Shown: in pieces, positions 43,986 to 60,837 of the stretch
How the letters are laid out: each line of letters starts with the position of its first letter
Position numbering within the stretch: the first letter of the stretch is position 1
DNA from: Nitrospira lenta
GTDB lineage: Bacteria > Nitrospirota > Nitrospiria > Nitrospirales > Nitrospiraceae
Direction: 5' to 3'
Assembly (NCBI RefSeq): GCF_900403705.1
Contig: NZ_OUNR01000018.1
Span: forward strand, 124,001-188,000
Length of the DNA: 64,000 nucleotides
The notes under the pieces: model-generated
What the model was told of the DNA's origin: nothing
What the model saw: the letters and a program-made list of their open reading frames with translations, nothing else
Database searches by the model: none
Translations under genes and position numbers: made by a program

Positions 43986-44555
43986 CTATTTCTGTCCGTC
44001 CGATGAAGGCTTCGCAGCTTCTCCACGCAAATACGTCACAATCTTAATGTTAAAGGTCAACTGTTGATCGCGTGAACTGGAGGAACCAGCCAACTCTAGG
44101 TCTTCAATAAACAGCAGCTCCTCGGCAGTTTCAAGATCATAGATAAACCGCCTCAGATCCTCATACCGCCCGGTCATGGCTCCCTGAAGCACCCCTTTAC
44201 TCGTATTCGTTACCGCGGTCGACTCAGTCTTGTAAGACAGTGCCGGCAGCGTCACATGGTCGCGCTCCGCCTCTTCGGATATCCCTAAGGCCAACGGAGC
44301 AAAGTCACGCTCGACCGGGAGAACGGCCCAGACCTGACTCACATCCTTTCGCGCCTTCTTCGCTTCCCGATGCTGAGCCAACATCTGGCGCGCAGCTCCC
44401 CACTCTTTTTCGATCTGGATCCGATGACCTTCAACCCCACGAACCCCAACCGTATTGACCAGAACCAGCCCTCCCAGCAACAACGCAGCCAGCCCAACCC
44501 ACGGCAACAGCGGGGCATACGGCTCGGACAACATGCGCCGCAACCGATCCGTCAC
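43986..44555 (-). CDS. PilO/GspM-like inner-membrane assembly protein
   Basis: 189 aa. One N-terminal helix (LLPWVGLAALLLGGLVLVNT), then a coiled-coil (EKEWGAARQMLAQHREAKKA) and a ferredoxin-like periplasmic part ending YEDLRRFIYDLETAEELLFI, a hallmark of PilO. Follows the PilN-like gene directly. Confidence 0.82.
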   Translation of the reverse strand: MTDRLRRMLSEPYAPLLPWVGLAALLLGGLVLVNTVGVRGVEGHRIQIEKEWGAARQMLAQHREAKKARKDVSQVWAVLPVERDFAPLALGISEEAERDHVTLPALSYKTESTAVTNTSKGVLQGAMTGRYEDLRRFIYDLETAEELLFIEDLELAGSSSSRDQQLTFNIKIVTYLRGEAAKPSSDGQK

Positions 44556-45179
44556 TTACACGCCCTCCCGCCGATACCTAACGGTTACATCGAACTCCAC
44601 CAAACCGCTTGGTCCAACTCGATGCTGCGCTAACACCGGGTCTTTGAATTTGGGATGGTCTTGCAGTCCGACGGTAAATGCCGTGAGATCTTCCAAACTC
44701 GTCGCCGAGCCGGTCAGATGAACGAGCGACCCTCCGGACTCCAACCGGACACTGGTGAGCGCCAAGCGTGGCGGAAGCGCTTGCTCCAACCCTGCTAAAA
44801 ACGCCGTCCAAGAAAATGTCCGCTTCTCAAGCAGTTGATTGGCCAACGCAACTTCTGCGGGTAACTGCAGCAGCGCCCGCTCGGACAGATCGATCCCCTC
44901 TTGAGTCGCCTCGGCTATGAGCTGCTGATCCTGCTGCCGCACATGCTCCAGCTCGGCACTCATTTGCAGAAGATCTTGGTACCCGAGAACCGTTCGGGCC
45001 ATACTCCACGCGATCGCCACGCAGAGCGCCAAACAACCGGCCATCAGCCCCAGCTGGAGCGGAAGCAGATACCACCGAAATCGGGTAGCGAGAGAAATCT
45101 GAAAATATCGATGGAGCCCCATCATACGCGCCACGCGATCGGCGGCGCAGCTGATGCCGTCTCGAAGCGCCACCATCAT
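44556..45179 (-). CDS. PilN/GspL-like inner-membrane assembly protein
   Basis: 207 aa from the ATG at 45179, overlapping the PilM-like stop by 4 nt; an extension to 45242 is rejected. A basic cytoplasmic start (VARMMGLHRYFQI) is followed by one membrane helix (LPLQLGLMAGCLALCVAIAW), coiled coil and a PilN-type C-terminal fold (PPRLALTSVRLESGGSLVHL, SLEDLTAFTVGLQDHPKFK). Confidence 0.82.
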   Translation of the reverse strand: MMVALRDGISCAADRVARMMGLHRYFQISLATRFRWYLLPLQLGLMAGCLALCVAIAWSMARTVLGYQDLLQMSAELEHVRQQDQQLIAEATQEGIDLSERALLQLPAEVALANQLLEKRTFSWTAFLAGLEQALPPRLALTSVRLESGGSLVHLTGSATSLEDLTAFTVGLQDHPKFKDPVLAQHRVGPSGLVEFDVTVRYRREGV

Positions 45180-46165
45180 GACAACACTCCCGCCAATGCG
45201 GCAAGGGAATCCACACCCTGCCGATGCTCCCCGTTCCCCCAACCGCGCGATTCAATATCCTCCCAACCCAGAGACTCAACGGACAGCGCCAGATACTCCT
45301 CGAGCTTTTCGTGCAACGCCACCATATTGTCAGCACACAACACGACACGGTGCACCGATACTCCCGAATGGCGCTGCTGGCACATTTCCAGCGAAGCGGC
45401 ACATTCCTCCGCAATTTTCTGCAAGCCGGTATCGGCGCCACTCAACGTATCCACGGTCAATAACTTGCACCGATAGAACAATAAGCGACCCTGCTGAAAC
45501 ACCATGGCCGTCAACGCTCGATCAACCAGGCTGATCCACAGCAGGTCATCGCCTTGCCATCCCGTCCGCCCGGCCATTTTGACCCATAAGTCAAAGAGCC
45601 GCAGGCTCGTCAGTCCCACATCACGCGGAACCAACCCGACGCTTTCACAGACTGATTCATACTGACGCAAAACCGATTGATGGACCGCCACGGCCAGTAC
45701 CGACTGCGCCGCGCCAGCGGCACGCGGAGACCCGCTAAATACTTGCGAGATCATCGTCGTTCCGGTGAGTGGGAACAGCTGCTCCTGGCCGAATCGCCAG
45801 CGGATCAACGCCTCGCGTTCATCCGCACGAGCCGGCAGTTGATCCAAATGCAACACCACGGCCCGCACCGCCGCATCCGGCAGCAGCAAGGTCACTGGAC
45901 GCGGACCGTTGGCCATCACAACCTGCCCCAAGATCCGAACATCATGTGGAGGACCAACTAAGCCATGAATTTTCGCTTCCACGACCGGCAGCTGAGCAAG
46001 ATTCGGTTCAGCCGGCGACGGCTTGACCGCGCCCTCAGGAAGCGGGGAGGTTACGCACCGATATCCACGTCTACCACGCCAATCCGACTGCGTCTCCGCC
46101 CAGGCCACGGACTCCACACCGACCTTGAGACATTGTCGCGGCCGACCGCTTATCCATCCCCACAT
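45176..46165 (-). CDS. PilM-like actin-fold cytoplasmic protein
   Basis: 329 aa. The arrangement around RWRFGQEQLFPLTGTTM and SVLAVAVHQSVLRQYESVCE matches PilM/MshI (SHS2/ASKHA fold), including the middle DLLWISLVDRALTAMVFQQG. The N-terminal conserved segment (KVGVESVAWAE) is short. It anchors PilN and the ATPase at the inner membrane. The ATP-site glycines are weak, as in other MshI-type members. Confidence 0.8.
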   Translation of the reverse strand: MWGWISGRPRQCLKVGVESVAWAETQSDWRGRRGYRCVTSPLPEGAVKPSPAEPNLAQLPVVEAKIHGLVGPPHDVRILGQVVMANGPRPVTLLLPDAAVRAVVLHLDQLPARADEREALIRWRFGQEQLFPLTGTTMISQVFSGSPRAAGAAQSVLAVAVHQSVLRQYESVCESVGLVPRDVGLTSLRLFDLWVKMAGRTGWQGDDLLWISLVDRALTAMVFQQGRLLFYRCKLLTVDTLSGADTGLQKIAEECAASLEMCQQRHSGVSVHRVVLCADNMVALHEKLEEYLALSVESLGWEDIESRGWGNGEHRQGVDSLAALAGVLS

Positions 46166-46168
46166 CCC

Positions 46169-47917
46169 TCACCCCTCCTCGCTGAAGGTCACGCGATTGA
46201 TCTCACGCAGCGAGGTCTCTCCCTGCAAGACTTTCTTGATCGCGGATTGACGCAGCGTAATCATTCCGTCCGTCACGGCGCGATACCGGATTTCCGACAA
46301 GGGCCGTTCCGCCAAGATCATCTCCTTGATTTCATCCGTCAGATCCAGAAATTCAGTAATACACTTCCGCCCGCGATACCCGGTCCCCATGCAATTCGGG
46401 CAACCCTTCCCCTGATAGAAAGGCGTATCTTTATATTGCTCATAGTCGAGACCCGAATCCTCTAAGAGCGATTGTTCAGCCGCAACCGGCACTCGGCATG
46501 AGGGACAGAGAATCCGCACCAGTCGTTGGGCCAATACGCAATTCAACGCCGCGAGAAAATTGTAGGCATCGATGCCCATAGAGGCGAACCGTCCGATGAC
46601 ATCGAACACATTGTTCGCATGGACCGTCGTGAGCACCAAATGCCCGGTCAACGCGGACTGAATCGCAATCTGCGCCGTCTCCGCATCACGAATTTCTCCG
46701 ACCATGATCTTGTCCGGATCATGACGCAGGATGGACCGAAGCCCTCGCGCGAACGTCAGCCCCTTTTTTTCATTGACCGGAATTTGCACGATTCCAGCCA
46801 GCTGATACTCAACGGGATCTTCAATGGTAATCAGCTTGTCTTCTGCCGTATTCATTTCTGAAATCGCAGCATACAAGGTCGTCGTTTTCCCGCTTCCGGT
46901 CGGCCCGGTCACCAACACCATCCCGTACGGTCTGACGATCGCCCGGCGAAACCGCTTCAGATCTTCAGGATTGAAACCCAACCGCTCCAGACGAAGGGCC
47001 GAGACCCCAGTAGTAATCGCCTCACGGTCCAGAATACGGACGACGACAGATTCGCCGAAGACGCTGGGGAGAATAGACACGCGAAAATCGACGGTCTTGC
47101 GATCAAGCCGCATCCGGAAACTGCCGTCCTGCGGTACTCGCCGCTCCGCAATATCCAGCTCAGACATAACTTTCAGCCGAGACACCAAGGGCGCATGCAG
47201 ACGGATATCCAACGGTTCCATGGCGGGAACGAGAATACCATCCACACGCAGCTTCACTTTCGTGGCTCGATCCGAAGCTTCAATGTGAATATCGCTCGCG
47301 CGACGCTGCATCGCACTGAGCAAGATCGAATCCAGCAGTTTCACCGCCGGGCTTTGATCCTCGGCCACATGATTGACCGTGAGCACTTCCTCCCCGCGGT
47401 CGTCCTCTTTGACCAGAACGGACCGATATTCCGCTTCCAACTCCCGCAACGCCTGGCTCGACCCCTCACTGCGCTCAAGCGCGGAGAGAATCGCGCTTCG
47501 CGAACTCACCACGCGGGCCAACGGCTTGCCGATCAGCAATTCCAATTCATCAAATCCCAACACATTCTGCGGATCCGCAATGGCAATGGTCAGGACGCCG
47601 GCCCGCTCCCCCATCGGCACAAACGGATGGCGCTGCATGAGCTTCACGGAGATAGATTCATAGAACTGCTGATCGACGCGATACTCGGTGAGTGGGTCAT
47701 AGGGAAGTCCGTACTGTTCAGCCAGAGCCTTGGCAAGCTGCTCTTCCGAAAGCACCCCTTCACTCACCAATGTTTGGCCAAGCGCGAGGGACACTCCACC
47801 TAGGCGGCGAAGCGTGTGCTCAATCGGCTCCCGAGCAAGGCCATGGCGCACCAAGACCTCCACCAATGTAGGACGGGTCGCACTACGAGCCACTACGCAC
47901 CTCACGCCTACGGACAC
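46169..47917 (-). CDS. GspE/PilB-type secretion ATPase
   Basis: 582 aa hexameric motor. The N-terminal MshEN/GspE-N domain (about 10-160) has TLVEVLVRHGLAREPIEHTL and EEQLAKALAEQYGLPY. The catalytic part has Walker A GPTGSGKTTTLYAAIS, the Asp box (TIEDPVEYQL), Walker B LRHDPDKIMVGEIRD and the His box (GHLVLTTVHANN). A tetracysteine zinc motif (CPSC and CPNC about 40 residues apart) lies near the C-terminus, as in assembly ATPases. No retraction ATPase PilT is seen here. Confidence 0.94.
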   Translation of the reverse strand: MSVGVRCVVARSATRPTLVEVLVRHGLAREPIEHTLRRLGGVSLALGQTLVSEGVLSEEQLAKALAEQYGLPYDPLTEYRVDQQFYESISVKLMQRHPFVPMGERAGVLTIAIADPQNVLGFDELELLIGKPLARVVSSRSAILSALERSEGSSQALRELEAEYRSVLVKEDDRGEEVLTVNHVAEDQSPAVKLLDSILLSAMQRRASDIHIEASDRATKVKLRVDGILVPAMEPLDIRLHAPLVSRLKVMSELDIAERRVPQDGSFRMRLDRKTVDFRVSILPSVFGESVVVRILDREAITTGVSALRLERLGFNPEDLKRFRRAIVRPYGMVLVTGPTGSGKTTTLYAAISEMNTAEDKLITIEDPVEYQLAGIVQIPVNEKKGLTFARGLRSILRHDPDKIMVGEIRDAETAQIAIQSALTGHLVLTTVHANNVFDVIGRFASMGIDAYNFLAALNCVLAQRLVRILCPSCRVPVAAEQSLLEDSGLDYEQYKDTPFYQGKGCPNCMGTGYRGRKCITEFLDLTDEIKEMILAERPLSEIRYRAVTDGMITLRQSAIKKVLQGETSLREINRVTFSEEG

Positions 47918-47954
47918 CGTTCACCATGTTTGGAGCAACGACCTTCATGACGCC

Positions 47955-49169
47955 CTACCCAATCGTGCCGGCCATCTGAAATACCGGCAGATACATCACA
48001 ATGACGATGGCTCCGACGAGCACTCCCATGACCAGCAACAAGACCGGTTCAATCCACGTGGTCACTTGAGACAACCGCGTATCGAGATCGGCTTCATAAA
48101 AATCCCCGACATCTCGCAACATGCTCTCCAATGAACCGGTTTCCTCACCGACCGACACCATCTCAATGGCCAGTTTCGGCAAGATACGCGGACGCTCAAG
48201 CGCCGTCGCCAGCGTGGCCCCCTCACGAATCTCGCTTTCGGCTTCATCCAGACCTACCCTCACCCAGCGATTAGAGACCGCACCGCGTGCAATATGCAGC
48301 GCCTCTACCAGAGGCGTGCCTCCGGCCAGAATGGTCCCCAAGGTTCTGGTCAACTGCACCGTGTGGTGCTTCACCATGATCGGCCCGATGAGTGGAAGTG
48401 CGAGCAAGAAGCGATCGATCGTCAATCGACCGGTCGGAGTCGCATAGTAGGCCCGCAAGGCCAATCCACCCGCGCCGAGAATGAGTAGCGCCGGAATCAG
48501 CTGCGCCTCGCCATGCCGCACAACATCCATGAGTAATTGAGTCGCCCAAGGGAGTGTCTTCGCATTCTCCCCATACACAGACACAAACGTCGGCATCACA
48601 AAGGTGAGCAAGAAGGCAATGACACCCACTCCGATCAACACCAAAAACAACGGATAGGACAGGGCCTTCGTCACTTTTTGGCGCAGCGCCATCATCAGCT
48701 TCAGATACCCGATGTACCGCTGCAGCACCTCGGGAAGATTGCCCGATTGCTCTCCCGCTTTGACCGTTGCAATATACAACTCGGGGAAATAGGTGGGATG
48801 TGTGGCTAACGCGTCGGACGACGCCGTGCCTCCCCGAATATCCTGCCGTACCTCCCGTAACGCCTGTTGAAATCCCGTGTGCTGGGCCCGCTCGATAAGC
48901 AGCTCCCACACTCGCAACACCGGCAATCCCGACTTCACCAACGCCAGAAACTCCTGGTTGAAAATCAGAAACTCTCCCAGAGGAAGCTTTCCCCAGGATC
49001 GACTCGGGGCAGGCTGGCCGGAGACTGCACCACTTCGTTGATGCAGGGTGAAAACCAAGAGGCCTTGAGACTCTAGCCTTCCACGCACCGCAGCCTCTTC
49101 GACCCCTTCGATTTGTCCGTCAACGATAGAGCCGTCAGATCGAGCAACTCTGTAGGTGAAGATGGCCAT
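47955..49169 (-). CDS. GspF/PilC inner-membrane platform protein
   Basis: 404 aa with two repeated GspF domains. Motifs: FNQEFLALVKSGLPVLRVWE, FPELYIATVKAGEQSGNLPE, and MVSVGEETGSLESMLRDVGD. Three membrane segments at about 165-190, 215-240 and 375-398. It organises the ATPase under the pseudopilus. Confidence 0.94.
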   Translation of the reverse strand: MAIFTYRVARSDGSIVDGQIEGVEEAAVRGRLESQGLLVFTLHQRSGAVSGQPAPSRSWGKLPLGEFLIFNQEFLALVKSGLPVLRVWELLIERAQHTGFQQALREVRQDIRGGTASSDALATHPTYFPELYIATVKAGEQSGNLPEVLQRYIGYLKLMMALRQKVTKALSYPLFLVLIGVGVIAFLLTFVMPTFVSVYGENAKTLPWATQLLMDVVRHGEAQLIPALLILGAGGLALRAYYATPTGRLTIDRFLLALPLIGPIMVKHHTVQLTRTLGTILAGGTPLVEALHIARGAVSNRWVRVGLDEAESEIREGATLATALERPRILPKLAIEMVSVGEETGSLESMLRDVGDFYEADLDTRLSQVTTWIEPVLLLVMGVLVGAIVIVMYLPVFQMAGTIG

Positions 49170-49207
49170 GAATAGGTACCTGCGTCCCAGAGAGACGGGG
49201 CGTTTGG

Positions 49208-50062
49208 TTACTCAGCCTTATCGAGTGGAGACGTCCCGGATGCGACAGGACTGGGGAGCCGAAGGGCTTGCCCAATGAGAATTCGACTATCGGCTAACTC
49301 ATTTGCGACCATGAGTTGCTGCACCGTGACACGAAATCGCTGCGCAATACTCCACAGTGTATCCCCCGGCTTCACCGAGAGACTGGCAGGACGGGCGGCC
49401 TCCGCCGACAAAGGCTCTCTGCTATCAATGATCGCATCGGATGGCAGCGTCTCAGTCGGAATCACGTCCGCGCGCGACGTCTCAGCGTTATGAGGGGAGG
49501 TATCCATGTTGACAGGACGTACTGCGGACGGGCGGGTGGTTGCCGAAGACAGGCTGGCCGGTGCGGCACCAGTTTCGCCACCGCGCTCAAACTGCTTTCC
49601 CATCTTCGCCAGCTGTTTCTGGAGTTGTTTGAGCTGGTTCTGCAACGCCGTCCCGGCCTGAGAAACCCGCTGCCGCTCAGTTCGAGATGAGGTGAGCTCC
49701 TCGCGCTGCAGATCAATAATATGCCGGGCCTCTGTCAGCCGCCGTTCCGCTTCTCGAATTCGCCCTTCCATCTGTGCGCGGGCGATTTGGGAATCTGCCA
49801 GCTCTTGCCGCCTAGACTCGAGTTCCGATCGAAGCTCCGCAATCATGCGCTGGGAGTCACGGAGTGAGGTCTTCAGCGTATCCACCGTCAGCTGAAGGTC
49901 CGACACCTCCTGCTCGACGATGGGTTCGAGCGGTCCGCACCCGGCGAGACTTATTCCTCCGAGCAGGAACCAGACCGCCCCTGCACCCAGTCTTCTCCGA
50001 CACGTAAAGCCAGAAACACTGGCAAGCAAATTATGAACTGATCGTATACGCATAGACAGCAT
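49208..50062 (-). CDS. LysM lipoprotein with coiled coil
   Basis: About 284 aa; the ATG at 50062 overlaps the GspG stop (TAATG), with an in-frame ATG 6 nt upstream. Signal and lipobox: GAVWFLLGGISLAGC. Residues 50-155 form a long coiled coil (SDLQLTVDTLKTSLRDSQRM). A Thr/Ser-rich linker follows, and a C-terminal LysM domain (VKPGDTLWSIAQRFRVTVQQ) binds peptidoglycan. In place of the usual pilotin it may tether the secretin complex to the cell wall. Confidence 0.88.
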   Translation of the reverse strand: MLSMRIRSVHNLLASVSGFTCRRRLGAGAVWFLLGGISLAGCGPLEPIVEQEVSDLQLTVDTLKTSLRDSQRMIAELRSELESRRQELADSQIARAQMEGRIREAERRLTEARHIIDLQREELTSSRTERQRVSQAGTALQNQLKQLQKQLAKMGKQFERGGETGAAPASLSSATTRPSAVRPVNMDTSPHNAETSRADVIPTETLPSDAIIDSREPLSAEAARPASLSVKPGDTLWSIAQRFRVTVQQLMVANELADSRILIGQALRLPSPVASGTSPLDKAE

Positions 50063-50463
50063 TACCATTGATTGTAGGCGGTCCCGGTTGTTCCGACAAG
50101 GTCAGACCCGGAATAGACATCAAAGATGCCACCCTCTGTCGGCTCAATGATCTCTTGCCATGTCGTTGAGGAACTCGTAAATGGGTCTTTGGGTAGCGAC
50201 CGCAGATACCCAGCCACCACAAGCCCTTCCAAATTGCTCGGGTATTTCCCATGGTCAGCCCGATGGTGATCTAAAAGTTCCCGCATAGTGAACAGATCCT
50301 GCCGCAACACGGTCTCCCGCGCCTTGATTAATGAAGACTGATACGACGGCACCGCAAGCGTGGCTAAAATTCCAATAATTGAAATCACGATCATCAACTC
50401 AATAAGGGTAAAACCTCTTGCGTTGAGTGCGCCAGGCCTACCAATCTCGATACTTCGTTCCAT
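50062..50463 (-). CDS. type II secretion major pseudopilin GspG-like
   Basis: 133 aa. The prepilin signal is ARGFTLIELMIVISIIGILA, with G at -1, F at +1 and E at +5. The rest follows the GspG pattern: ETVLRQDLFTMRELLDHHRA, HGKYPSNLEGLVVAGYLRSL, and KDPFTSSSTTW. Its start overlaps the upstream pseudopilin gene by 26 nt. Confidence 0.92.
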   Translation of the reverse strand: MERSIEIGRPGALNARGFTLIELMIVISIIGILATLAVPSYQSSLIKARETVLRQDLFTMRELLDHHRADHGKYPSNLEGLVVAGYLRSLPKDPFTSSSTTWQEIIEPTEGGIFDVYSGSDLVGTTGTAYNQW

Positions 50464-50944
50464 CCAGCGCTACGGCCTCGCTTTGGGTCACCACATCATA
50501 AACATCCTCGCCGCACCAACTGGACGGCTTCGGACTGTCTTTATAACAACGGAGAATCCAGTCGATCTTCCCGGTGAGCGGGTCGACCGGCATGCCTCGA
50601 AGATATCGCCGCATCGTCGTCCCGCGAACCGTCGCTTCTTCCCCGGTCAACTTGACCCCGAGAAGCGCATCCAACGTCTTGGGATACCCATAGATGCTGG
50701 TCACATCTTTACAGGTCAGCTTGTTCTTCAAACAGACAGGCCCGAGCAATGCATCGCCATCTCGATTCCATTCCAACTTGAACGTATCAATGGCCGATCG
50801 GATAGTCCGCAACTGCTGGCGCAATTCGATTTCCTGTCGTCGTTGTGTCGTGACCTTGCTCAGGGGCATTGCGATTGAGGCGAGAATCACGACGATCGTC
50901 ATGGTGACAAGAAGCTCAAGAAGCGTGACTCCCGACTCTTTCAC
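50438..50944 (-). CDS. second pseudopilin (GspG/GspH-like)
   Basis: 168 aa. N-terminal MKESGVTLLELLVTMTIVVI is a prepilin signal with a very short leader (G-V-T-L-L-E). A 60-residue helical part (ELRQQLRTIRSAIDTFKLEW) and a domain with four cysteines (VCLKNKLTC, RCYKDS, WCGEDVYD) follow. DPLTGKIDWILRC resembles the GspG calcium-loop region. Overlaps the secretin gene by 4 nt. Confidence 0.88.
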   Translation of the reverse strand: MKESGVTLLELLVTMTIVVILASIAMPLSKVTTQRRQEIELRQQLRTIRSAIDTFKLEWNRDGDALLGPVCLKNKLTCKDVTSIYGYPKTLDALLGVKLTGEEATVRGTTMRRYLRGMPVDPLTGKIDWILRCYKDSPKPSSWCGEDVYDVVTQSEAVALDGTKYRDW

Positions 50945-53289
50945 CGGACCCTCACGACTCCCGTCCCGGTTTCGGTCGCTTGTACGGCACCTTCTCGATC
51001 CCCCGCAACGAGCTCGACCCTCACCGGAGAAACCCCGACGGCAACAGCCGCAAACGTGACCGTCACAGATCGAGGAGCAGGACTGTCTGTCTTAGACAGA
51101 CGAAAGGTCAACTTCCCCGTATCCTCTCCCCCACCATTGTTTTCAGAAGCAGCCGCATCGAGCAACTCCGCATCGCCAATTCGTTTGAAGTGCAACACCA
51201 GCGGATCATATTCCAACAGGAAGACATTATCGGCCGATGCCTGAAGACGCCCATCCATGATCGAAAGCTTAATTTCTTTTCCGACATGGACCGCCGTATC
51301 GCCGGGCCGAATGGAAAGAACCGGGCCGCTGACTGCGGCCTTCATCAGAGAGGCGGCTGACGCGGTATCATTCTTAGAACGTGTACCGACCGAGGAGAGT
51401 GAACCGAGTCCGGTCTGGCTGCCGGAGAGATGCGCTAGCGTCTTCTTCGGAGCGCTTGAGAACAGCGGCGTGGTCGCATAACTCGTCTCAGTCCCGGACC
51501 AGAAGGCCTGGTTAGTTGATCCGGGCGCCAATGGGGACTGCATGATGCGAGGAGTAATCGTCAAGATGACTTCGGTCGTTATCCGTTCCGTTTTGAATGA
51601 GCTAAGCCAATTCCCGATGAGAGGGAGGTCTCCGATCCACGGCATGGTCACGCGAGTCCGGCGATCCTCCTCCTGGATGAGTCCACCGAGGACGATTGTT
51701 TCGCCGTCACGCATATTGAGCGTCGTTTCGGCCGAACGATTGCCGAAACGGAATTGCTGGATCGGTGGAGAGGCCTGTAAGGTCACCTGATCGCCGATGC
51801 GGATCACTTCCACTTTCATCTTCAAGGAAAGTTCATTGCCCAATCGGATGGATGGCTCCACCGTGAGTTTGACCCCGGTGTCCCGAAACTCAATCGACGT
51901 GACGGTTGATGTCGTCGGCACCGCCCCAGTTGCCGCCTGCCCAGGCAACACATTGGTGGTCGACAAGAGGATCGGCTGCTTGTCTCCGATGTTGATCTCA
52001 GCCTTCTTATTGTTCACCACACGCACTTTTGGCGCAGCCAGCGTCTTAGCATCAGACTCCTGCTTGAAGAAATCGAGCAAGACACTTGTGGGAAGACGAA
52101 ACAGATAGCTGTCCGGCCCAAGACTCGTCAATTGGCGATACGTCATTTGGACAGGATCTGCCGCCAAGGCCCCCGTAAACCCAGGAGGAATGAGCCCGGC
52201 GCCGGCCTGCTTGGGATAATTCAAACCGTAGGTCTGGTTCTTGGTACGATTGACTTCCAGCACTTCAAGGTCAAACAGGACTTCCGGCTCTTGCCGGTCA
52301 TTGGAAAGAATGATCCGCTCGGCCAAATCCAGCTTCTCCGGTTGATCGCGAATCACGATGGCATTGAGCTGTTCGTTGGCATGCATGCGTTTGGAGTCCA
52401 ACATGCTTTTGAGCAGCACCAACATGTCCTTCGCTTTAGCCGTCGACAGATAAAAGGTGCGGATCATCAGGTCCTGATACTGTTCCTGCTTCTGCTTTGT
52501 GTTCGGGCTGATGATGAGAACTCCGGACGAAACCTGCCTGGAAAAGAGGCTATTGCTGTTCAGAATCAAGTTCAGCGCATCCTCAAATGGCGTATCCTGA
52601 ACCCCGATAGAAATCGGATCGTTCCGAACATCTTTATCGAAAATCAGAGTAAACCCGCCGACCTTGGCCACTCCCTCCAATACCTCTTTGATCCCTGCAT
52701 TCTTGAATCGCATCGTCACCGGCTGCTTCAAGCGATCGCTGCGCATGGACGCTTGCTGCTCTTCCGTCAATCGGCTGATGCTTTCAAGAGGATCCTTGAA
52801 CGTAGGATCAAGCTCAGCAGCCCTGGTATAGCCTCTCATCGCCTCGTCTATTCGACCGAGCTGGGCCAACCGTTCAGCTTCACGAAAATGCGAGCGAGCC
52901 TCTTTCAATCTGGTTGCTTCCGCCAGGCCGGCCTGATGAGCAAGATTGGCAGGCTCAATCGTCAACGCCCGCTTGAACTGCTCAATCGCCAGATCCATTT
53001 GCCGTTCTTTGAGAAACGCCTGCCCACGGTCATGGTAGAGGCCTGCTGCCCGTTCCCGCGCCATCGCATACTTGCCGGTGAGCCCTGGGTCAAATGGATC
53101 GTTCTTCAAGGCCTCCTTGTAGGCAAGACTAGCTTCCTCCCAATTTCCGGCAGCCAGATGCTGATCACCACGCTTCGCATCCTGAGAGGCAAGACAGCCT
53201 GAGAGAAGAACAAAAGACAGAAGCAATGAGGCAACTTGCCCAGAGTGGGGGGAAAACCTATCGACCCGAATCAGTAGACTTCGCATCAC
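50941..53289 (-). CDS. TPR-secretin-cohesin outer-membrane protein (GspD/PilQ-like)
   Basis: 782 aa. Lipoprotein signal (SLLLSFVLLSGC). Residues about 30-180 are TPR-like repeats (QHLAAGNWEEASLAYKEALK, MDLAIEQFKRALTIEPANLA). N0/STN module about 190-260, N1-type module about 270-340 (RTFYLSTAKAKDMLVLLKSM). The secretin domain, about 345-590, has VEPSIRLGNELSLKMKVEV and the C-terminal VLGGLIQEEDRRTRVTMPWI then GDLPLIGNWLS. Residues about 660-782 look like a cohesin domain (SIRPGDTAVHVGKEIKLSI, VTVTFAAVAVGVSPVRVEL). The TPR-secretin-cohesin order differs from canonical GspD. First gene of the operon. Confidence 0.92.
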   Translation of the reverse strand: MMRSLLIRVDRFSPHSGQVASLLLSFVLLSGCLASQDAKRGDQHLAAGNWEEASLAYKEALKNDPFDPGLTGKYAMARERAAGLYHDRGQAFLKERQMDLAIEQFKRALTIEPANLAHQAGLAEATRLKEARSHFREAERLAQLGRIDEAMRGYTRAAELDPTFKDPLESISRLTEEQQASMRSDRLKQPVTMRFKNAGIKEVLEGVAKVGGFTLIFDKDVRNDPISIGVQDTPFEDALNLILNSNSLFSRQVSSGVLIISPNTKQKQEQYQDLMIRTFYLSTAKAKDMLVLLKSMLDSKRMHANEQLNAIVIRDQPEKLDLAERIILSNDRQEPEVLFDLEVLEVNRTKNQTYGLNYPKQAGAGLIPPGFTGALAADPVQMTYRQLTSLGPDSYLFRLPTSVLLDFFKQESDAKTLAAPKVRVVNNKKAEINIGDKQPILLSTTNVLPGQAATGAVPTTSTVTSIEFRDTGVKLTVEPSIRLGNELSLKMKVEVIRIGDQVTLQASPPIQQFRFGNRSAETTLNMRDGETIVLGGLIQEEDRRTRVTMPWIGDLPLIGNWLSSFKTERITTEVILTITPRIMQSPLAPGSTNQAFWSGTETSYATTPLFSSAPKKTLAHLSGSQTGLGSLSSVGTRSKNDTASAASLMKAAVSGPVLSIRPGDTAVHVGKEIKLSIMDGRLQASADNVFLLEYDPLVLHFKRIGDAELLDAAASENNGGGEDTGKLTFRLSKTDSPAPRSVTVTFAAVAVGVSPVRVELVAGDREGAVQATETGTGVVRVR

Positions 53290-53528: not shown

Positions 53529-54824
53529 CTAGAGACGCCAGTATTTTATTGAGGAAGGGACTTTTGAAGGATCAAAAATGCTTTTCACGTCGATCAAGAC
53601 TCCACTCTTCTGATCACGCAAGGGCTTTAGCAGCTCACTAAGCCCCATCTCAAGGAAACCCCGGTGAGCCACCGCCACAATTACGCCATCAACATCTTTG
53701 ATCTGTTTCAAATCGATCAGCTTGATCCCATACTCATGCACGGCTTCCTCCGATTCAGCGATCGGATCATGCACAATCACTTGCACGCCATACTCGCGAA
53801 GCTCATTGATGATATCCGGGACTTTACTATTGCGAAGGTCAGGCACATTCTCTTTAAAGGTCAATCCAAGCACTGCAACTTTAAGTTCATTGACGGGCCG
53901 AGGAAGCTGACTCAGAAGCTTCATTGTCTGTTCAGCGACGAACTTCCCCATGCCATTGTTGATCCGACGGCCTGAAAGAATCACCTGGGGATGGTAACCC
54001 ACCGACTCAGCCTTCGCCGTCAGGTAATAGGGATCAACCCCGATACAATGGCCACCGACGAGGCCAGGTGAAAATCTCAGGAAATTCCATTTTGTACCTG
54101 CGGCCTCTAAGACCGACTTCGTATCGATTCCCAACCGATGAAAAATCAGCGCCAGCTCATTCATCAGCGCAATATTGAGGTCGCGTTGTGTATTCTCAAT
54201 TACCTTGGCAGCTTCGGCGACTTTGATACTTGACGCACGATGGATTCCAGCTTTCACCACTGTCTCATAAGTCTTTGCAACAACTTCCAGCGATTCAGCA
54301 TCCTGAGCCGAAACGACCTTGATGATTTTCTCAAGCGTATGCTCTTTGTCTCCGGGATTGATGCGCTCCGGAGAATATCCGATCTTGAAATCGACTCCGG
54401 CCTTCATCCCAGACATTTTTTCGAGGATGGGCAAACACACTTCTTCCGTGGCCCCGGGATAGACCGTCGACTCATACACAACAATGGTCCCTGGAGCCAA
54501 ATTCGAGCCAATCAGCTCAGATGACTTCTGCAAGGCTGTAAAATCAGGCTGAAGCGCCTCATTGATAGGCGTCGGGACCGCGACAATAATAAAATCAGCA
54601 GCCTTGAGCTCCGCCGGCTCCCACGTATACTGCACCTGCGAAGCCTTGAGGTCAGCAGATGAAACTTCCCCTGTTCGATCAACCCCACGGCGTAATTCAT
54701 CAATCTTGGCCTTATTAATGTCGAAGCCAACCACCGGCCCTTGCTTGCCAAATGCCACGGCAATGGGAAGTCCTACATACCCCAACCCTACGACAGCAAT
54801 TGACCGAGTCCGCTCTTTACCCAT
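53529..54824 (-). CDS. UDP-N-acetyl-sugar 6-dehydrogenase (TviB-like)
   Basis: 431 aa nucleotide-sugar dehydrogenase making a UDP-uronic acid for surface polysaccharide. NAD motif IAVVGLGYVGLPIAVAFG; VAVPTPINEALQPDF; the catalytic cysteine in SPGLVGGHCIGVDPYYL; then YHPQVILSGRRINNGMG, which favours the UDP-GlcNAc/GalNAc (TviB/WbpO) branch over UDP-glucose. C-terminal domain LKVAVLGLTFKENVPDLRNS. It stands alone on the minus strand at the edge of the polysaccharide region. Confidence 0.92.
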   Translation of the reverse strand: MGKERTRSIAVVGLGYVGLPIAVAFGKQGPVVGFDINKAKIDELRRGVDRTGEVSSADLKASQVQYTWEPAELKAADFIIVAVPTPINEALQPDFTALQKSSELIGSNLAPGTIVVYESTVYPGATEEVCLPILEKMSGMKAGVDFKIGYSPERINPGDKEHTLEKIIKVVSAQDAESLEVVAKTYETVVKAGIHRASSIKVAEAAKVIENTQRDLNIALMNELALIFHRLGIDTKSVLEAAGTKWNFLRFSPGLVGGHCIGVDPYYLTAKAESVGYHPQVILSGRRINNGMGKFVAEQTMKLLSQLPRPVNELKVAVLGLTFKENVPDLRNSKVPDIINELREYGVQVIVHDPIAESEEAVHEYGIKLIDLKQIKDVDGVIVAVAHRGFLEMGLSELLKPLRDQKSGVLIDVKSIFDPSKVPSSIKYWRL

Positions 54825-55426: not shown

Positions 55427-57556
55427 ATGTACTCTCCAACGAAACCTTTGAGCGCCAAGATATCGAAACGGTTACTACTCGGCATCACTTTGGCTAGTTT
55501 GATATCAATAGAGACTCAGATACCAATGGCCACCGGCGCAGCCGCTATAACTCAAGAGAATTCATCATTGCAGCCCCACAACTCGTCAACGAAAGCTCTC
55601 TCCCCTACTGTAAAATCTTCACCGGCAGGGACACGAAAGTCGCATCGTCTGGTCCGCCGCCCGGCCCTCTTGGGGAGCAGCGAGGCCGGGACAATTGGCA
55701 CAGCTACCCTGAATCAAGCCCCATCGACACCTGCTATCAACACCCCCCCCTCTGTAAAGACGGTGCCCCCAGAGCCAGGAACAACATCGACCAGAGGGGT
55801 AGCATCAGAAAAGCAGACTCCCCAGATCAGCTTCGCGGCACCGATTGCAGGGCCGCTTGCACTCATGCAGACCACACCGGTAACCGCTGCAGCAGCAGCA
55901 CCTTCCGCACTGATGGGAAGCGCGCAGCCATCGACGAGAGTTGCTGCGGCAACTCCGTCCGGAGCGCGTGGACCAAACCCTCCTGGCCGAATGCAGCGGC
56001 TTCTGTCCGAGCTCCCAGGGGCAGCACAAATCGTTGCCTATCAAGAAGAAGATCCTGACCCAACTGTGGTTACCCCCACACTCACTCGCAATCCAAGCGT
56101 CTTATCATTTTCCGCTATTCAGAACGGATCCAGTCCGGGAGCCCAGGCCCTCACAGTAACCAACACAGGGCCCGGAACGCTGACATGGATCGCATCCGCA
56201 AATAGCGCCTGGCTGACATTGAATGGCGCCACATCAACCTCGGGGACCAATCTCGGCTCGATAAGCGTACGAGTAAATCCTGCCGGCCTCTCTGTTGGAA
56301 CTCATAGTGGCCTGATCACCATCGTCGGAACCGGTGCGACCAACTCTCCGCAGACAGTCAGTGTGAGCTTTGACGTCACGGCTGCCCCCACTCCCACCAT
56401 CGGCCTAAGCGCGACAACGTTATCGTTCTCGGCCATTCAGGGAGGGAGCAACCCGGCAAACAAGACGATCTCCGTTTCCAACTCCGGGAGTGGGACCTTA
56501 AACTGGACGGCAACTGAAAACGCTAGCTGGCTCAGCCTGAGCCCTGCTTCGGGAGCCGGATCCGGAACGATATCAGTCGCGGTCAATACGTCTGGTTTAT
56601 CCGCTGGTACTGTCAGCTCTCCCATTACGATTGCCGCTTCCGGATCTACAAACACACCCCAAACCGTGACCGTCTCGCTCACTATCACAGCGGCCGCGGT
56701 TCCTCCGGCTATAGGGGTCACTCCTGGGAGCTTGACCTTCACCGCACAGCAGGGAGGCGGAAACCCAACGCCACAGTCACTGGCCATCAGAAACACTGGA
56801 GGCGGCACCTTGACTTGGACCGTCAGCAACAACTCGGCGTGGCTGTCGCATTCCCCAACCTCCGGTACTGGAAATAGCGTGGTGACGATTAGTCCTATCA
56901 CCGGAAGCCTAACTGCCGGCACCTACAACGGCATAATTACCCTCTACGCTACCGGATCCACAACCGTAAATGTGCCAATCACCTTTACGATAACTGCTCC
57001 AGCAGCTCGAGCAACCATCGGCATGAGCCCCACAAATCTCTCGTTTAATGCCACCGCTGGAGGGAGCAACCCCTCGACGCAGAGCCTCGCAATAACCAAT
57101 ACCGGCACAGGAACCCTGACATGGACCGTCACAGACAACGCCAACTGGCTCACGGCAACCCAATCAGGCAACTCAGTGGTAGCGAGTATCAATATTGCTG
57201 GACTGGCGGTAGGAAGCTATAGCGGCATCATTACCGTGTCTGCATCCGGGGCTACCAACACTCCTCAAGCGGTGCCAGTGACATTGACCATAGCGGCGGC
57301 TACACAACCGACGACCGGAACGGTTACACTATCCTGGGTTCCCAATAGCGAATCAGATCTCGCAGGATATAAAGTGTATCGTGCGACATCCTCGGGGGGA
57401 TATGGCGCACCCATCGCCACTTTGACAGCAGGAACAAATCAATATGTATCGAGCGGTCTGGCGAAAGGATTCACCTACTTTTTCGTGATCACAGCCTATG
57501 ACGAGGCAGGGAATGAAAGTCCCTACTCGAGCGAAACAAGTAAGAGCGTCTATTAA
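55427..57556 (+). CDS. secreted BACON-repeat protein with C-terminal fibronectin III domain
   Basis: 709 aa from the ATG at 55427, which has a GGAGG nine nt upstream; the ATG at 55382 has no such site. A signal-like N-terminus (KRLLLGITLASLISIE) leads into about 170 low-complexity Ser/Thr/Pro/Ala residues. Four tandem repeats of about 100 aa follow, near 218-320, 322-424, 426-524 and 526-624. Each has the pattern LSFSA(I)QGG-NP, L-NTG-GTL-W, (A/N)WL, SG--SGTI, LTI; this matches BACON/Ig-like domains. The last 80 residues are an FN3 domain (GTVTLSWVPNSESDLAGYKV). These domains bind carbohydrate or other matrix components; no catalytic site. Two jelly-roll secreted proteins follow on the same strand. 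Confidence 0.9.
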   Translation: MYSPTKPLSAKISKRLLLGITLASLISIETQIPMATGAAAITQENSSLQPHNSSTKALSPTVKSSPAGTRKSHRLVRRPALLGSSEAGTIGTATLNQAPSTPAINTPPSVKTVPPEPGTTSTRGVASEKQTPQISFAAPIAGPLALMQTTPVTAAAAAPSALMGSAQPSTRVAAATPSGARGPNPPGRMQRLLSELPGAAQIVAYQEEDPDPTVVTPTLTRNPSVLSFSAIQNGSSPGAQALTVTNTGPGTLTWIASANSAWLTLNGATSTSGTNLGSISVRVNPAGLSVGTHSGLITIVGTGATNSPQTVSVSFDVTAAPTPTIGLSATTLSFSAIQGGSNPANKTISVSNSGSGTLNWTATENASWLSLSPASGAGSGTISVAVNTSGLSAGTVSSPITIAASGSTNTPQTVTVSLTITAAAVPPAIGVTPGSLTFTAQQGGGNPTPQSLAIRNTGGGTLTWTVSNNSAWLSHSPTSGTGNSVVTISPITGSLTAGTYNGIITLYATGSTTVNVPITFTITAPAARATIGMSPTNLSFNATAGGSNPSTQSLAITNTGTGTLTWTVTDNANWLTATQSGNSVVASINIAGLAVGSYSGIITVSASGATNTPQAVPVTLTIAAATQPTTGTVTLSWVPNSESDLAGYKVYRATSSGGYGAPIATLTAGTNQYVSSGLAKGFTYFFVITAYDEAGNESPYSSETSKSVY

Positions 57557-57643
57557 TAACCGTTCTGAGAGCCAGGTTAGGTGTGGTAGAACTTTCCATG
57601 TCTCTGGTGGACTCGGGCAAAATTCACAGCGTAGGAAAGGTAT

Positions 57644-58534
57644 ATGAGAATGGAAAGTGTTCGCAGCAGCCGTTTAGAAACTGTAGGCCTAGTTGCCTGC
57701 CTGCTCCTAAGCTGTATGGCGGTATCGCCATCATGGTCGAATGCAGCTGTATTTTGGGAAGATGGGCTCGAGCCAGGGAATACAGGATATACGGCAGTTG
57801 GAGGGATGAACTTTTCCAACAGTGTCGTGGCATATGGCTCCCATTCACTGCGACTTTTTTTCCCTTCGATAAATGTGCAAGCAGGGACTTTCACCGACCG
57901 CGAATTCCCATCTACCACCAATATTTATAGTCGATTCTATTTTCGGTTAGACAACTTTACGGTTGCGAATCAGACCAAAATCGTGGAATTCACAGATTAT
58001 GCAACGGGCTCAGGCCCTAGCTACTGGTGGAACATGTCCAATGGCAACCCAGAACTTAATGTTCACGCTCAACTTGTCTTACTGCCCGATGGCACCCTCG
58101 GAACGAAAGTCTTCTATCCAAATCAAGGCAACGCTCGCTTTCAGAATGGCCAGTGGTATTGCGTGGAACTCCATATCCAGCACAATACTCCAGGTGTCGC
58201 AGACGGACTCATCGAAGCCTGGAAAGACGGTCAGCAAGTTCTCTACTACCCCAATTTGAAATTGCGAGAAGCAACTCAGATCGGCAATCATGACCCCAAC
58301 CGGAAATTCACCATCAATCGTCTGTACGCACAATACGGACAGGGAGAAATGTATTTTGATAGTATGGCCGTCGGAAATCAGCGAATCGGCTGTTCGGGCA
58401 CACCCCCACAGGTTGAACCGCCGCCGCCCGCTCCGCTGGTACCCACTCCGCCAGCTCCAGCTCCACCGGCTCCCCAACCCACTGTCCCATCCTTAGTCCC
58501 ACCACCAACCCCTAATGGGCTGTTTATAAGGTAA
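57644..58534 (+). CDS. secreted jelly-roll (polysaccharide-lyase-like) protein 1
   Basis: 296 aa. AGGAAAGG precedes the ATG. Signal peptide ETVGLVACLLLSCMAVSPSW up to SNA. Mature part begins AVFWEDGLEPGNTGY and is all-beta, with NGQWYCVELHIQHNTPG and GLIEAWKDGQQVLYY, a pattern shared with polysaccharide lyases of the alginate/heparin-lyase jelly-roll type and with LamG-like lectins. The catalytic residues of those lyases cannot be located with confidence. The C-terminus is GCSGTPP then a Pro-rich 40-residue tail ending PNGLFIR. It is about one third identical to the next gene's product, so the pair arose by duplication. Confidence 0.82.
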   Translation: MRMESVRSSRLETVGLVACLLLSCMAVSPSWSNAAVFWEDGLEPGNTGYTAVGGMNFSNSVVAYGSHSLRLFFPSINVQAGTFTDREFPSTTNIYSRFYFRLDNFTVANQTKIVEFTDYATGSGPSYWWNMSNGNPELNVHAQLVLLPDGTLGTKVFYPNQGNARFQNGQWYCVELHIQHNTPGVADGLIEAWKDGQQVLYYPNLKLREATQIGNHDPNRKFTINRLYAQYGQGEMYFDSMAVGNQRIGCSGTPPQVEPPPPAPLVPTPPAPAPPAPQPTVPSLVPPPTPNGLFIR

Positions 58535-58562
58535 CCAATTCGCGTTCAGTGAGGAGAAACAC

Positions 58563-59366
58563 ATGATAGCGTACAAACTTCCATCGCCAAGCAATCTCAG
58601 AATCACAGGCCTCACGGTTCTGCTTGCGGGGCTGATCCTAGGGCACCCCATAATCTCTTATTCCGCCGTCTTCTGGGATGATGAGATGGAGTCCGGCAAC
58701 ACCGGCTACAACCTTATCTCTGGGGCCATGTCATTTGATACTTCCGTGAAGTTCAGTGGTAACGGATCCGTCCGGTTAGATTATCCGTCCGTCTGCTATC
58801 CGGATTCCAGTGCACAGAACAACTGCGGTGGATACATGGATCGCACGTTCACCCCGACGGGGACGTTCTACCGCCGTTTCTATATCCGGTTAAGTTCAGG
58901 ATTTACTGTGTCTGACGTATTTACGAAGCTGATGCGGTCGGATACCAATGGGCAGACAAGCAACTGGTGGACGCTGGGATGTTGCGGCAGCAAGCAGCTC
59001 GAAGTGCACGACCAAAATGTGCCGGTGGGCACGACCTCGGTCTACTACGCGAATTTCACGATGTCAGACGCAACCTGGTATTGCGTCGAGACCTATGAAC
59101 AACTCAATACTCCCGGTATAGCAAACGGCGTGCAGCAAGCGTGGGTGAATGGTACGCAAGTCCTCAATCAGACAGGCATTCCATTCAGAGCTTCCGGGGA
59201 CAATGCTCTCTACTACAACAATCGGCTGTATCGACAGACTGGACTAGGCTCAATTTGGTTTGATCGCGTGGCCGTCGGTGACACCCGCATCGGCTGCTCA
59301 GGAACACCGCCGCCTTCAAACGATACTACCCCCCCGGCAACTCCCAGTGGTTTTACAGCCCGGTAG
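58563..59366 (+). CDS. secreted jelly-roll (polysaccharide-lyase-like) protein 2
   Basis: 267 aa, paralogue of the preceding protein, 28 nt downstream with a GAGGAG ribosome site. Signal peptide NLRITGLTVLLAGLILGHPI then SYSAVFWDDEMESGNTGY. Shared features: FYRRFYIRLSSGFTVS, ATWYCVETYEQLNTPG, GVQQAWVNGTQVLNQTG, and IWFDRVAVGDTRIGCSGTPP. It has extra cysteines (CYPDSSAQNNCGG, GCCGSK) not in the paralogue. The short tail TTPPATPSGFTAR is like a truncated FN3 start. Probably binds or cleaves the same exopolysaccharide. Confidence 0.82.
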   Translation: MIAYKLPSPSNLRITGLTVLLAGLILGHPIISYSAVFWDDEMESGNTGYNLISGAMSFDTSVKFSGNGSVRLDYPSVCYPDSSAQNNCGGYMDRTFTPTGTFYRRFYIRLSSGFTVSDVFTKLMRSDTNGQTSNWWTLGCCGSKQLEVHDQNVPVGTTSVYYANFTMSDATWYCVETYEQLNTPGIANGVQQAWVNGTQVLNQTGIPFRASGDNALYYNNRLYRQTGLGSIWFDRVAVGDTRIGCSGTPPPSNDTTPPATPSGFTAR

Positions 59367-59499
59367 TAGCGGGGATCCCCCTGGGGAAGTGGCCTGTAGG
59401 CAACTACAGCTCCCATTGATGTCTACTTGGGAAACGACTGCCTCTTGCAACCAGGGTAGAATGACGGCTTCGGCGGTCCTCGACTAACGGAGTGGACCG

Positions 59500-59759
59500 A
59501 TGAATCGGTCGAAATTCTCCGAGGAGCAGATTATCGATTATGACATCCGGCCAGCCAAAAGCAGTACTCCGATCGACGACCTCTGCCGGCAGCTCGGCAT
59601 CGGCGAAGTAACCTTCTACACCGAAAAATGACGTATGCGCATCTGGACGTACGCAACCGGCTGAACTCGCTCACGGTGAAAGAGGAAAATGCCCGGCTCA
59701 AACGGCTGGTGGCAAATGTGCCCATGATCTTGTACTCGGCCGGTAACCGCATACCCTAG
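59500..59759 (+). pseudogene. IS3-family transposase orfA remnant
   Basis: Starts MNRSKFSEEQIIDYDIRP, as in IS3-family OrfA, then stops at 59629 (TGA). The family sequence continues in another frame (YAHLDVRNRLNSLTVKEENA then RLKRLVA) and ends at 59757. A one-base loss after TTCTACACC and missing downstream sequence make it non-functional. No intact orfB follows. Confidence 0.8.
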
Positions 59760-59872
59760 ACATTGAACTCTTCGGCGTTCCCCCGATATGGCTTTGCTAT
59801 TTCAAGGACGCTAGGGGCCAGACTTCGCAAATTGAGCTCGGTCGTCAATAGTAGACGCCATACGTTGCAGCC

Positions 59873-60837
59873 TCATGCCGCAGGCTGTTGACGGGCCCAC
59901 TGTTGGGCCAATGCCTCCAGCGAGCGATTCCTCAGTCTCGAATGGCGCCGCTGACGGTTGTAGAAGACCTCAATGTACTTCGCGATCTCCCGTCGGGCCT
60001 ATTCCCGCGTTCCATAGCACCGGTGATGTACCAGTTCGTTCTTCAGCGTGCCCCAAACACTTTCCATCGGGGCATTGTCGTAGCAATTGCCTCTCTGACT
60101 CATGGACGCGGTCATGCCGAACAGGCGTAATCGATCTTGATACTTTTGGGCACAATACTGCGAGCCGCGATCGGAGTGGTGAATCAGTCCCGGTCGCGGA
60201 CGTTTCGCCCCACCGCCATGCCAGGGCCTGACTCACCAAGTCCGTCGTCATCCGGCCCTCCCTCGCATGGCCGATCACCTCAGATCCTTGATCCCGGCTA
60301 CATACAATCACCCTTCCGCTGTGAGAACATGCGTGATATCGGTGACCCAGGTCTCATTCGGTCGCATGGTCGCAAACGTTTGAGCCAACCGGTTGTCCAC
60401 AACGGGTAGCGCGGGATTCGAATTTGTGGTGGTTTTGAACCGGCGCACCAGGAACAGCGCCGCCCGAGTTTCTTGCACAGCCGCTTAATGCGGCCGACAC
60501 CCGCCGGGAAACCGTCCTCACGCAGTTCGGCTTGCAGCCGTTCCGGGGCCATACGTCTGACGCGTGCACACATGCGCAGCCTGGATCGCCACTTCCAGCC
60601 GCGCACTCTCCTGGGCGCGTATCGAGGGACACTAGTGCTGCCAGGCATCGTAGCCGCTTCGGGACACTTCCCCGCCAGCCGCCCCTGCCACGCCAGAAAC
60701 ACCCCAGTTCGCGAGCGTCTTTCTAACATCGTCTGTCGTCTTGTCTCCTCGGGAATTGTCAGCTCCTGATCGAGCACCACCCCCACAGCTTGCTCCAGGA
60801 ACTCCTTCGTATACTTCTGCCGCGGTAACCGTTCCAT
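59873..60837 (-). pseudogene. decayed IS3-family transposase (orfA and orfB)
   Basis: From MERLPRQKYTKEFLEQAVGV near 60837 to the OrfB end QQWARQQPAA at 59873, read in several frames. The IS3 core is visible: RMAPERLQAELREDGFPAGV then GRIKRLCKKLG, MRPNETWVTDITHVLT (first Asp of DDE), MTTDLVSQAL. At least three frameshifts and local deletions break it. It is a different subgroup from the flanking remnants at 59500 and 62358. Confidence 0.82.

Follow-up and report, generated by a model that had tools for sequence, protein, structure and literature searches.

An FN3 strand-A-like C-terminal tail on diverse secreted proteins of Nitrospirota and its proposed docking into FN3 domains without strand A

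The locus and its BACON-FN3 protein

The window (the whole analysed stretch, 64,000 nucleotides of Nitrospira lenta) contains three consecutive forward-strand open reading frames at the positions given in the initial annotation, the first of which is read from 55382/55427. They encode a BACON-FN3 protein and two jelly-roll proteins (the twins), each with an N-terminal stretch that reads as a signal peptide. Upstream, on the opposite strand, lie a UDP-sugar dehydrogenase gene and a type II secretion/type IV pilus-like (T2SS/T4P-like) set with a TPR-bearing secretin, identified by Pfam and by N-methylation motifs read in the sequence. The earlier description of a polysaccharide-gene neighborhood is supported, and the T2SS/T4P-like genes may possibly provide the export route for the proteins of the locus. 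Sixteen loci, drawn from several genera, preserve the order secretin, UDP-sugar dehydrogenase, BACON-FN3 gene and tail gene. The secretin carries an extra C-terminal beta domain, possibly cohesin-like by eye, which ends in VVRVR-stop in nearly all relatives. Remnants of an IS3-type transposase were recognized by eye among the ORFs immediately 3' of twin 2 (59495-60837), and transposase-like ORFs also occur near tail genes in the relatives L093, L099 and L101.

Table 1 Features of the locus and its neighborhood (positions within the window)
Feature	Position	Strand	Remarks
T2SS/T4P-like set: PilO, PilN, GspE with MshEN, GspF, LysM protein, two pseudopilins	43986..50944	-	Pfam
Secretin with N-terminal TPRs and C-terminal beta domain	50941..53289	-	Kept as neighbor in relatives
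UDP-sugar dehydrogenase (TviB-like)	53529..54824	-	Syntenic with the BACON-FN3 gene in relatives
BACON-FN3 gene	55427..57556	+	Signal-peptide-like N-terminus, long low-complexity region, four BACON domains, C-terminal FN3; Pfam
C-terminal FN3 starting at strand B (GTVTLSW), without strand A	57317..57553	+	Proposed socket
Twin 1: secreted PL14/PL20/Cip1-type jelly roll, proline-rich linker, C-terminal tail	57644..58534	+	
Twin 1 tail, PPPTPNGLFIR-stop	58499..58531	+	
Twin 2: secreted PL14/PL20/Cip1-type jelly roll and C-terminal tail	58563..59366	+	
Twin 2 tail, PPATPSGFTAR-stop	59331..59363	+	

The first protein had been described as a secreted protein of four BACON repeats with FN3, and Pfam agrees. 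BACON_2 (PF19190) matches four stretches with 103.1 bits against a curated cut-off of 25 (7.6e-30), and fn3 (PF00041) matches once with 29.1 bits against a curated cut-off of 25 (1.2e-06). The protein is thus a standard member of the BACON and FN3 modular proteins, from which it departs in that its FN3 has no strand A. The fn3 match begins at profile position 8, the domain starts at strand B instead of showing the complete strand set, and strand B follows within about 10 residues of the last BACON strand, as it does in all neighbors examined. Strand A is absent from 97 of 101 FN3s of the BACON-FN3 type, and in the remaining 4 it is the last BACON strand or its linker that produces the A-strand match. 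Many of the approximately 97 A-less relatives are lipoproteins, and in the small ones among these strand B follows the lipobox cysteine so closely that a strand A would have little or no space. Small lipoproteins consisting of approximately an A-less FN3 alone are widespread in Nitrospira (L236-L275, for example L236:5623-5949); a tblastn search of an FN3 lipoprotein against plasmids returned no match. A second A-less FN3 protein, of 313 residues with a proline-rich linker, is encoded elsewhere in the same genome (L234:6407-7348, G000:C1).

The fold of the twin proteins

The twins are 46% identical to each other and are the sole two members of their family found in their own genome. Pfam places them in Polysacc_lyase and Polysacc_lyase_14 (PF14099 and PF21294; 2.4e-07 and 8.3e-07; 4.2e-06). 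Against the PL14/PL20 clan profiles twin 1 scores above both Pfam cut-offs, and twin 2 passes that of PF21294 narrowly (27.1 against 27). The closest solved protein by sequence is Cip1, with a profile match of 1.7e-09. Foldseek searches with an AlphaFold model containing twin 1 returned 2zzj, 6kcw and 3zyp as top matches; the best include the glucuronan lyase 2zzj, the alginate lyase Aly36B and Cip1 (3zyp). VIA-align superposed 150-167 residues at approximately 3 A with Z-scores of about 12-13, and PilC minor pilins that carry a LamG-type domain reach equal scores.

The twins therefore have the lyase-type fold that the initial annotation had read in them, as Pfam, Foldseek and VIA-align agree, and they share the jelly roll of PL14, PL20, PL36 and Cip1, albeit at 10-20% identity. 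The column aligned with the active-site tyrosine (Y185) of the PL36 relative Aly36B is variable, being occupied in the family by H, S, V, A, G, Q or T and by H in both twins. Lysine is present in 12 of the 13 rows of the Aly36B alignment and is only a candidate equivalent of K143. Lyase activity of the twins is consequently best described as putative; Cip1 itself gave no convincing sign of such activity (PMC3764139).

A C-terminal tail resembling FN3 strand A

The twins had also been credited with a shared GCSGTPP signature. This signature was rejected because GCSG ends the jelly-roll domain: RIGCSG is its last strand, and solved Cip1 ends in TRVGC. The recurring element is instead formed by the last approximately 11 residues, PPxxPx[GN][LF]x[VA][RQ]-stop, with [RQN] at the last position among close homologs. 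All close homologs of the twins stop at the same residue with this tail after a linker of variable length, and identity is 55% in the tail against 37% in the domain and 19% in the linker. Searched with a profile, 60 of 235 Nitrospirales genomes contained the twin family, and most of the divergent members retrieved still end in PPAPTNLRIQ, PPSAPINLRIQ, PPSSPVNLRAQ or similar before the stop. Across several Nitrospiraceae genera the tail is exactly C-terminal in these divergent PL-like homologs.

The search for the tail on other folds used a nucleotide pattern that covers it and its stop codon. In the own genome and the genus an overly permissive first pattern matched no more often than expected by chance, and matches were therefore read in frame. 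Order-wide, the raw count (31) was close to that of a reversed-pattern control (about 28), so that the reading frame constitutes the evidence; approximately 26 matches are C-termini of long, secreted-looking ORFs. A phylum-wide scan gave 16 real matches against 6 in the control. The tails score 10.9-26.6 (18.8 for twin 1) against at most 5.0 for about 700 other, unrelated C-termini, under a weight matrix trained on many of these same tails. The proteins so identified include non-homologous secreted ones (a subtilase, right-handed beta-helix proteins, a DUF5060 with Collagen_bind_2, TIG and kelch proteins), and the tail extends to other families and classes of the phylum (L230-L232). A restriction of the tail to the twins is ruled out by the divergent homologs and the other folds. 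Its presence on diverse, apparently secreted proteins is solid at the level of sequence, and the recurrence that the initial annotation had asked about is thereby found, and its idea of a possible export or attachment mark gains support, once the signature is moved to the last 11 residues. A strict form of the pattern was not found in viral contigs. Two prophage-like regions with phage tail-type genes hold a LamG-type gene ending in NKPTNLRVQ-stop (L143:8926-9864; L124, G129:C56:8088-8120).

Comparison with intact FN3 domains indicates what this tail resembles. In related genomes, FN3s with a full strand set have DTTAPTTPTDLAATATSASQIDLTW (L257) and TTAPTVPSNVVATATSASQINLTW (L144) at their start, and the tail reads DTTPPATPSGFTAR followed by the stop. 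In a chimera that joins the tail to the FN3, the alignment with the solved FN3s 3mpc and 1k85 takes in their strand A, while the FN3 alone (from the relative L101) aligns only from residues 19 and 15 of these structures, respectively. The Pfam fn3 score of the chimera exceeds that obtained with scrambled tails by just 1-5 bits. Judged from these alignments, the tail corresponds to strand A of an FN3 whose remaining strands are missing. Strand A of the BACON domain also resembles the tail; the partner of the tail could therefore be another Ig-like domain.

Two read-through fusions, made possible by genes that happen to share a frame, were modeled with AlphaFold, with an unnatural linker and shallow alignments in each. 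In the fusion of the window genes the FN3 and the jelly roll are confident and the tail is unstructured (pLDDT about 50). The L101 fusion places the tail as a strand at 384-388 (pLDDT about 78) after a disordered linker (pLDDT 44), and the partner of this strand is not readable from the model. The VIA-align list contains hardly any FN3 chains, with the exception of 5z06, because the jelly roll filled it.

Proposed docking and alternative explanations

Tail genes and A-less FN3 genes are linked both by position and by genome. The BACON-FN3 gene adjoins a tail gene in 16 loci, where the tail genes all encode PL/LamG-like or kelch plus LamG-like proteins and are therefore divergent rather than wholly unrelated. 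In another class (L230, G258) 26 bp separate a TIG-type tail gene from the gene of an A-less FN3 lipoprotein, and the G258 cluster includes a second A-less FN3 protein. A tail-independent search with the FN3 lipoprotein led to L299 (G250), where the next gene ends in a shortened tail, TPPVNLR-stop. Such adjacency is not a general rule: of 40 BACON-FN3 loci located independently of the tail none had an adjacent tail gene, and of 40 small-FN3 loci one did, which was known beforehand; several genomes of those small-FN3 loci carry a tail gene elsewhere. Among genomes with a tail, 37 of 38 also encode an A-less FN3, compared with 111 of 197 (Fisher test, 9e-08, without correction for phylogeny). 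Strand-A-like tails on diverse secreted proteins and A-less FN3s thus occur in the same genomes, and often side by side.

We consider it a real possibility, somewhat short of an even chance, that the three genes form a modular surface-attachment system in which the tail docks into the A-less FN3. The cargo, here the two lyase-fold jelly rolls, would be secreted with its C-terminal strand on a flexible linker. The scaffold would be the BACON-FN3 protein at this locus and small lipoproteins elsewhere, and the tail would insert as strand A into the FN3 that begins at strand B, so that diverse enzymes and adhesins are held non-covalently on a cell-surface or matrix scaffold. By further extension, the adjacent T2SS-like machine might export these proteins, which might then act on the exopolysaccharide of the cell itself. 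We propose tentatively, and with slightly more reserve, that this is a natural and widely used split-FN3 tag, in which a peptide of about 11 residues at the C-terminus of unrelated secreted enzymes completes sockets on lipoproteins or BACON scaffolds, allowing Nitrospirota to load their surface or matrix in a plug-in fashion. The precedent is donor-strand complementation in chaperone-usher pili and in TasA/TapA (PMC10151520), where an incomplete Ig-like sandwich is completed by a separate donor strand. Here too, judged by sequence, one protein has an Ig-like domain short of a strand and another has a strand that matches it; in the proposed pairing, enzymes or adhesins would donate their C-terminal strand and the A-less FN3 would accept it.

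The arrangement also recalls the PEP-CTERM/exosortase system, in which diverse signal-peptide proteins encoded near exopolysaccharide genes have only a short C-terminal module in common (PMC1569441). The tail could similarly be an export or sorting signal for a dedicated machine, such as the adjacent T2SS-like one, its likeness to strand A being incidental or ancestral; the secretin, GspE, GspF and pseudopilin set is indeed a conserved neighbor of the BACON-FN3 gene. In a PEP-CTERM module a transmembrane helix and a basic cluster come after the PEP motif (PMC1569441), whereas neither twin ends in this way and the tail has neither a transmembrane segment nor a basic cluster. Since A-less FN3s are present in the same genomes and T2SS-like genes were not seen adjoining the tail gene in other classes, we regard a sorting signal as unlikely, though deserving of serious consideration.

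Alternatively, the tail strand might pair elsewhere, with the cargo's own domain, with another copy in self-assembly, or with a BACON domain or other receptor. The similarity of BACON strand A to the tail, some LamG alignments in the first model that reach the last residue, and the non-obligatory adjacency to A-less FN3s fit such a partner. Linkers that vary and reach approximately 45 residues argue against pairing within the own fold, and the tail is common to unrelated cargo folds; we regard this explanation as improbable. The most conventional interpretation takes the secreted BACON-FN3 protein and its two paralogous lyase-fold neighbors as modifiers of exopolysaccharide and the tail as a relic, without a role, of lost C-terminal FN3s; it agrees with the fold and families of the twins. 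It also agrees with a long relative (L025) in which similar tandem jelly rolls are joined in one chain by DTTPPPxP linkers. A relic would not stay better conserved than its domain or stop at one fixed residue across unrelated families, and we consider this interpretation decidedly improbable.

A literature search, with most subscription journals outside its scope, found no description of such a tail or docking system. If docking is correct, nitrite oxidizers and comammox bacteria, an environmentally central group, would use a previously undescribed protein-docking code, from which attached secreted proteins and their anchors could be predicted. FN3 would join the folds used for donor-strand assembly, and the tail and its acceptor would provide a short, genetically encoded tag and socket pair. 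Whether or not docking is correct, the C-terminal motif marks a hidden class of exopolysaccharide-associated proteins.

Beside A-less FN3 genes in another class we also observed proteins that end in a hydrophobic segment and basic residues (L296:7897-8805, L299:8102-8845 and L300:3421-4194), C-termini that resemble a separate sorting signal.
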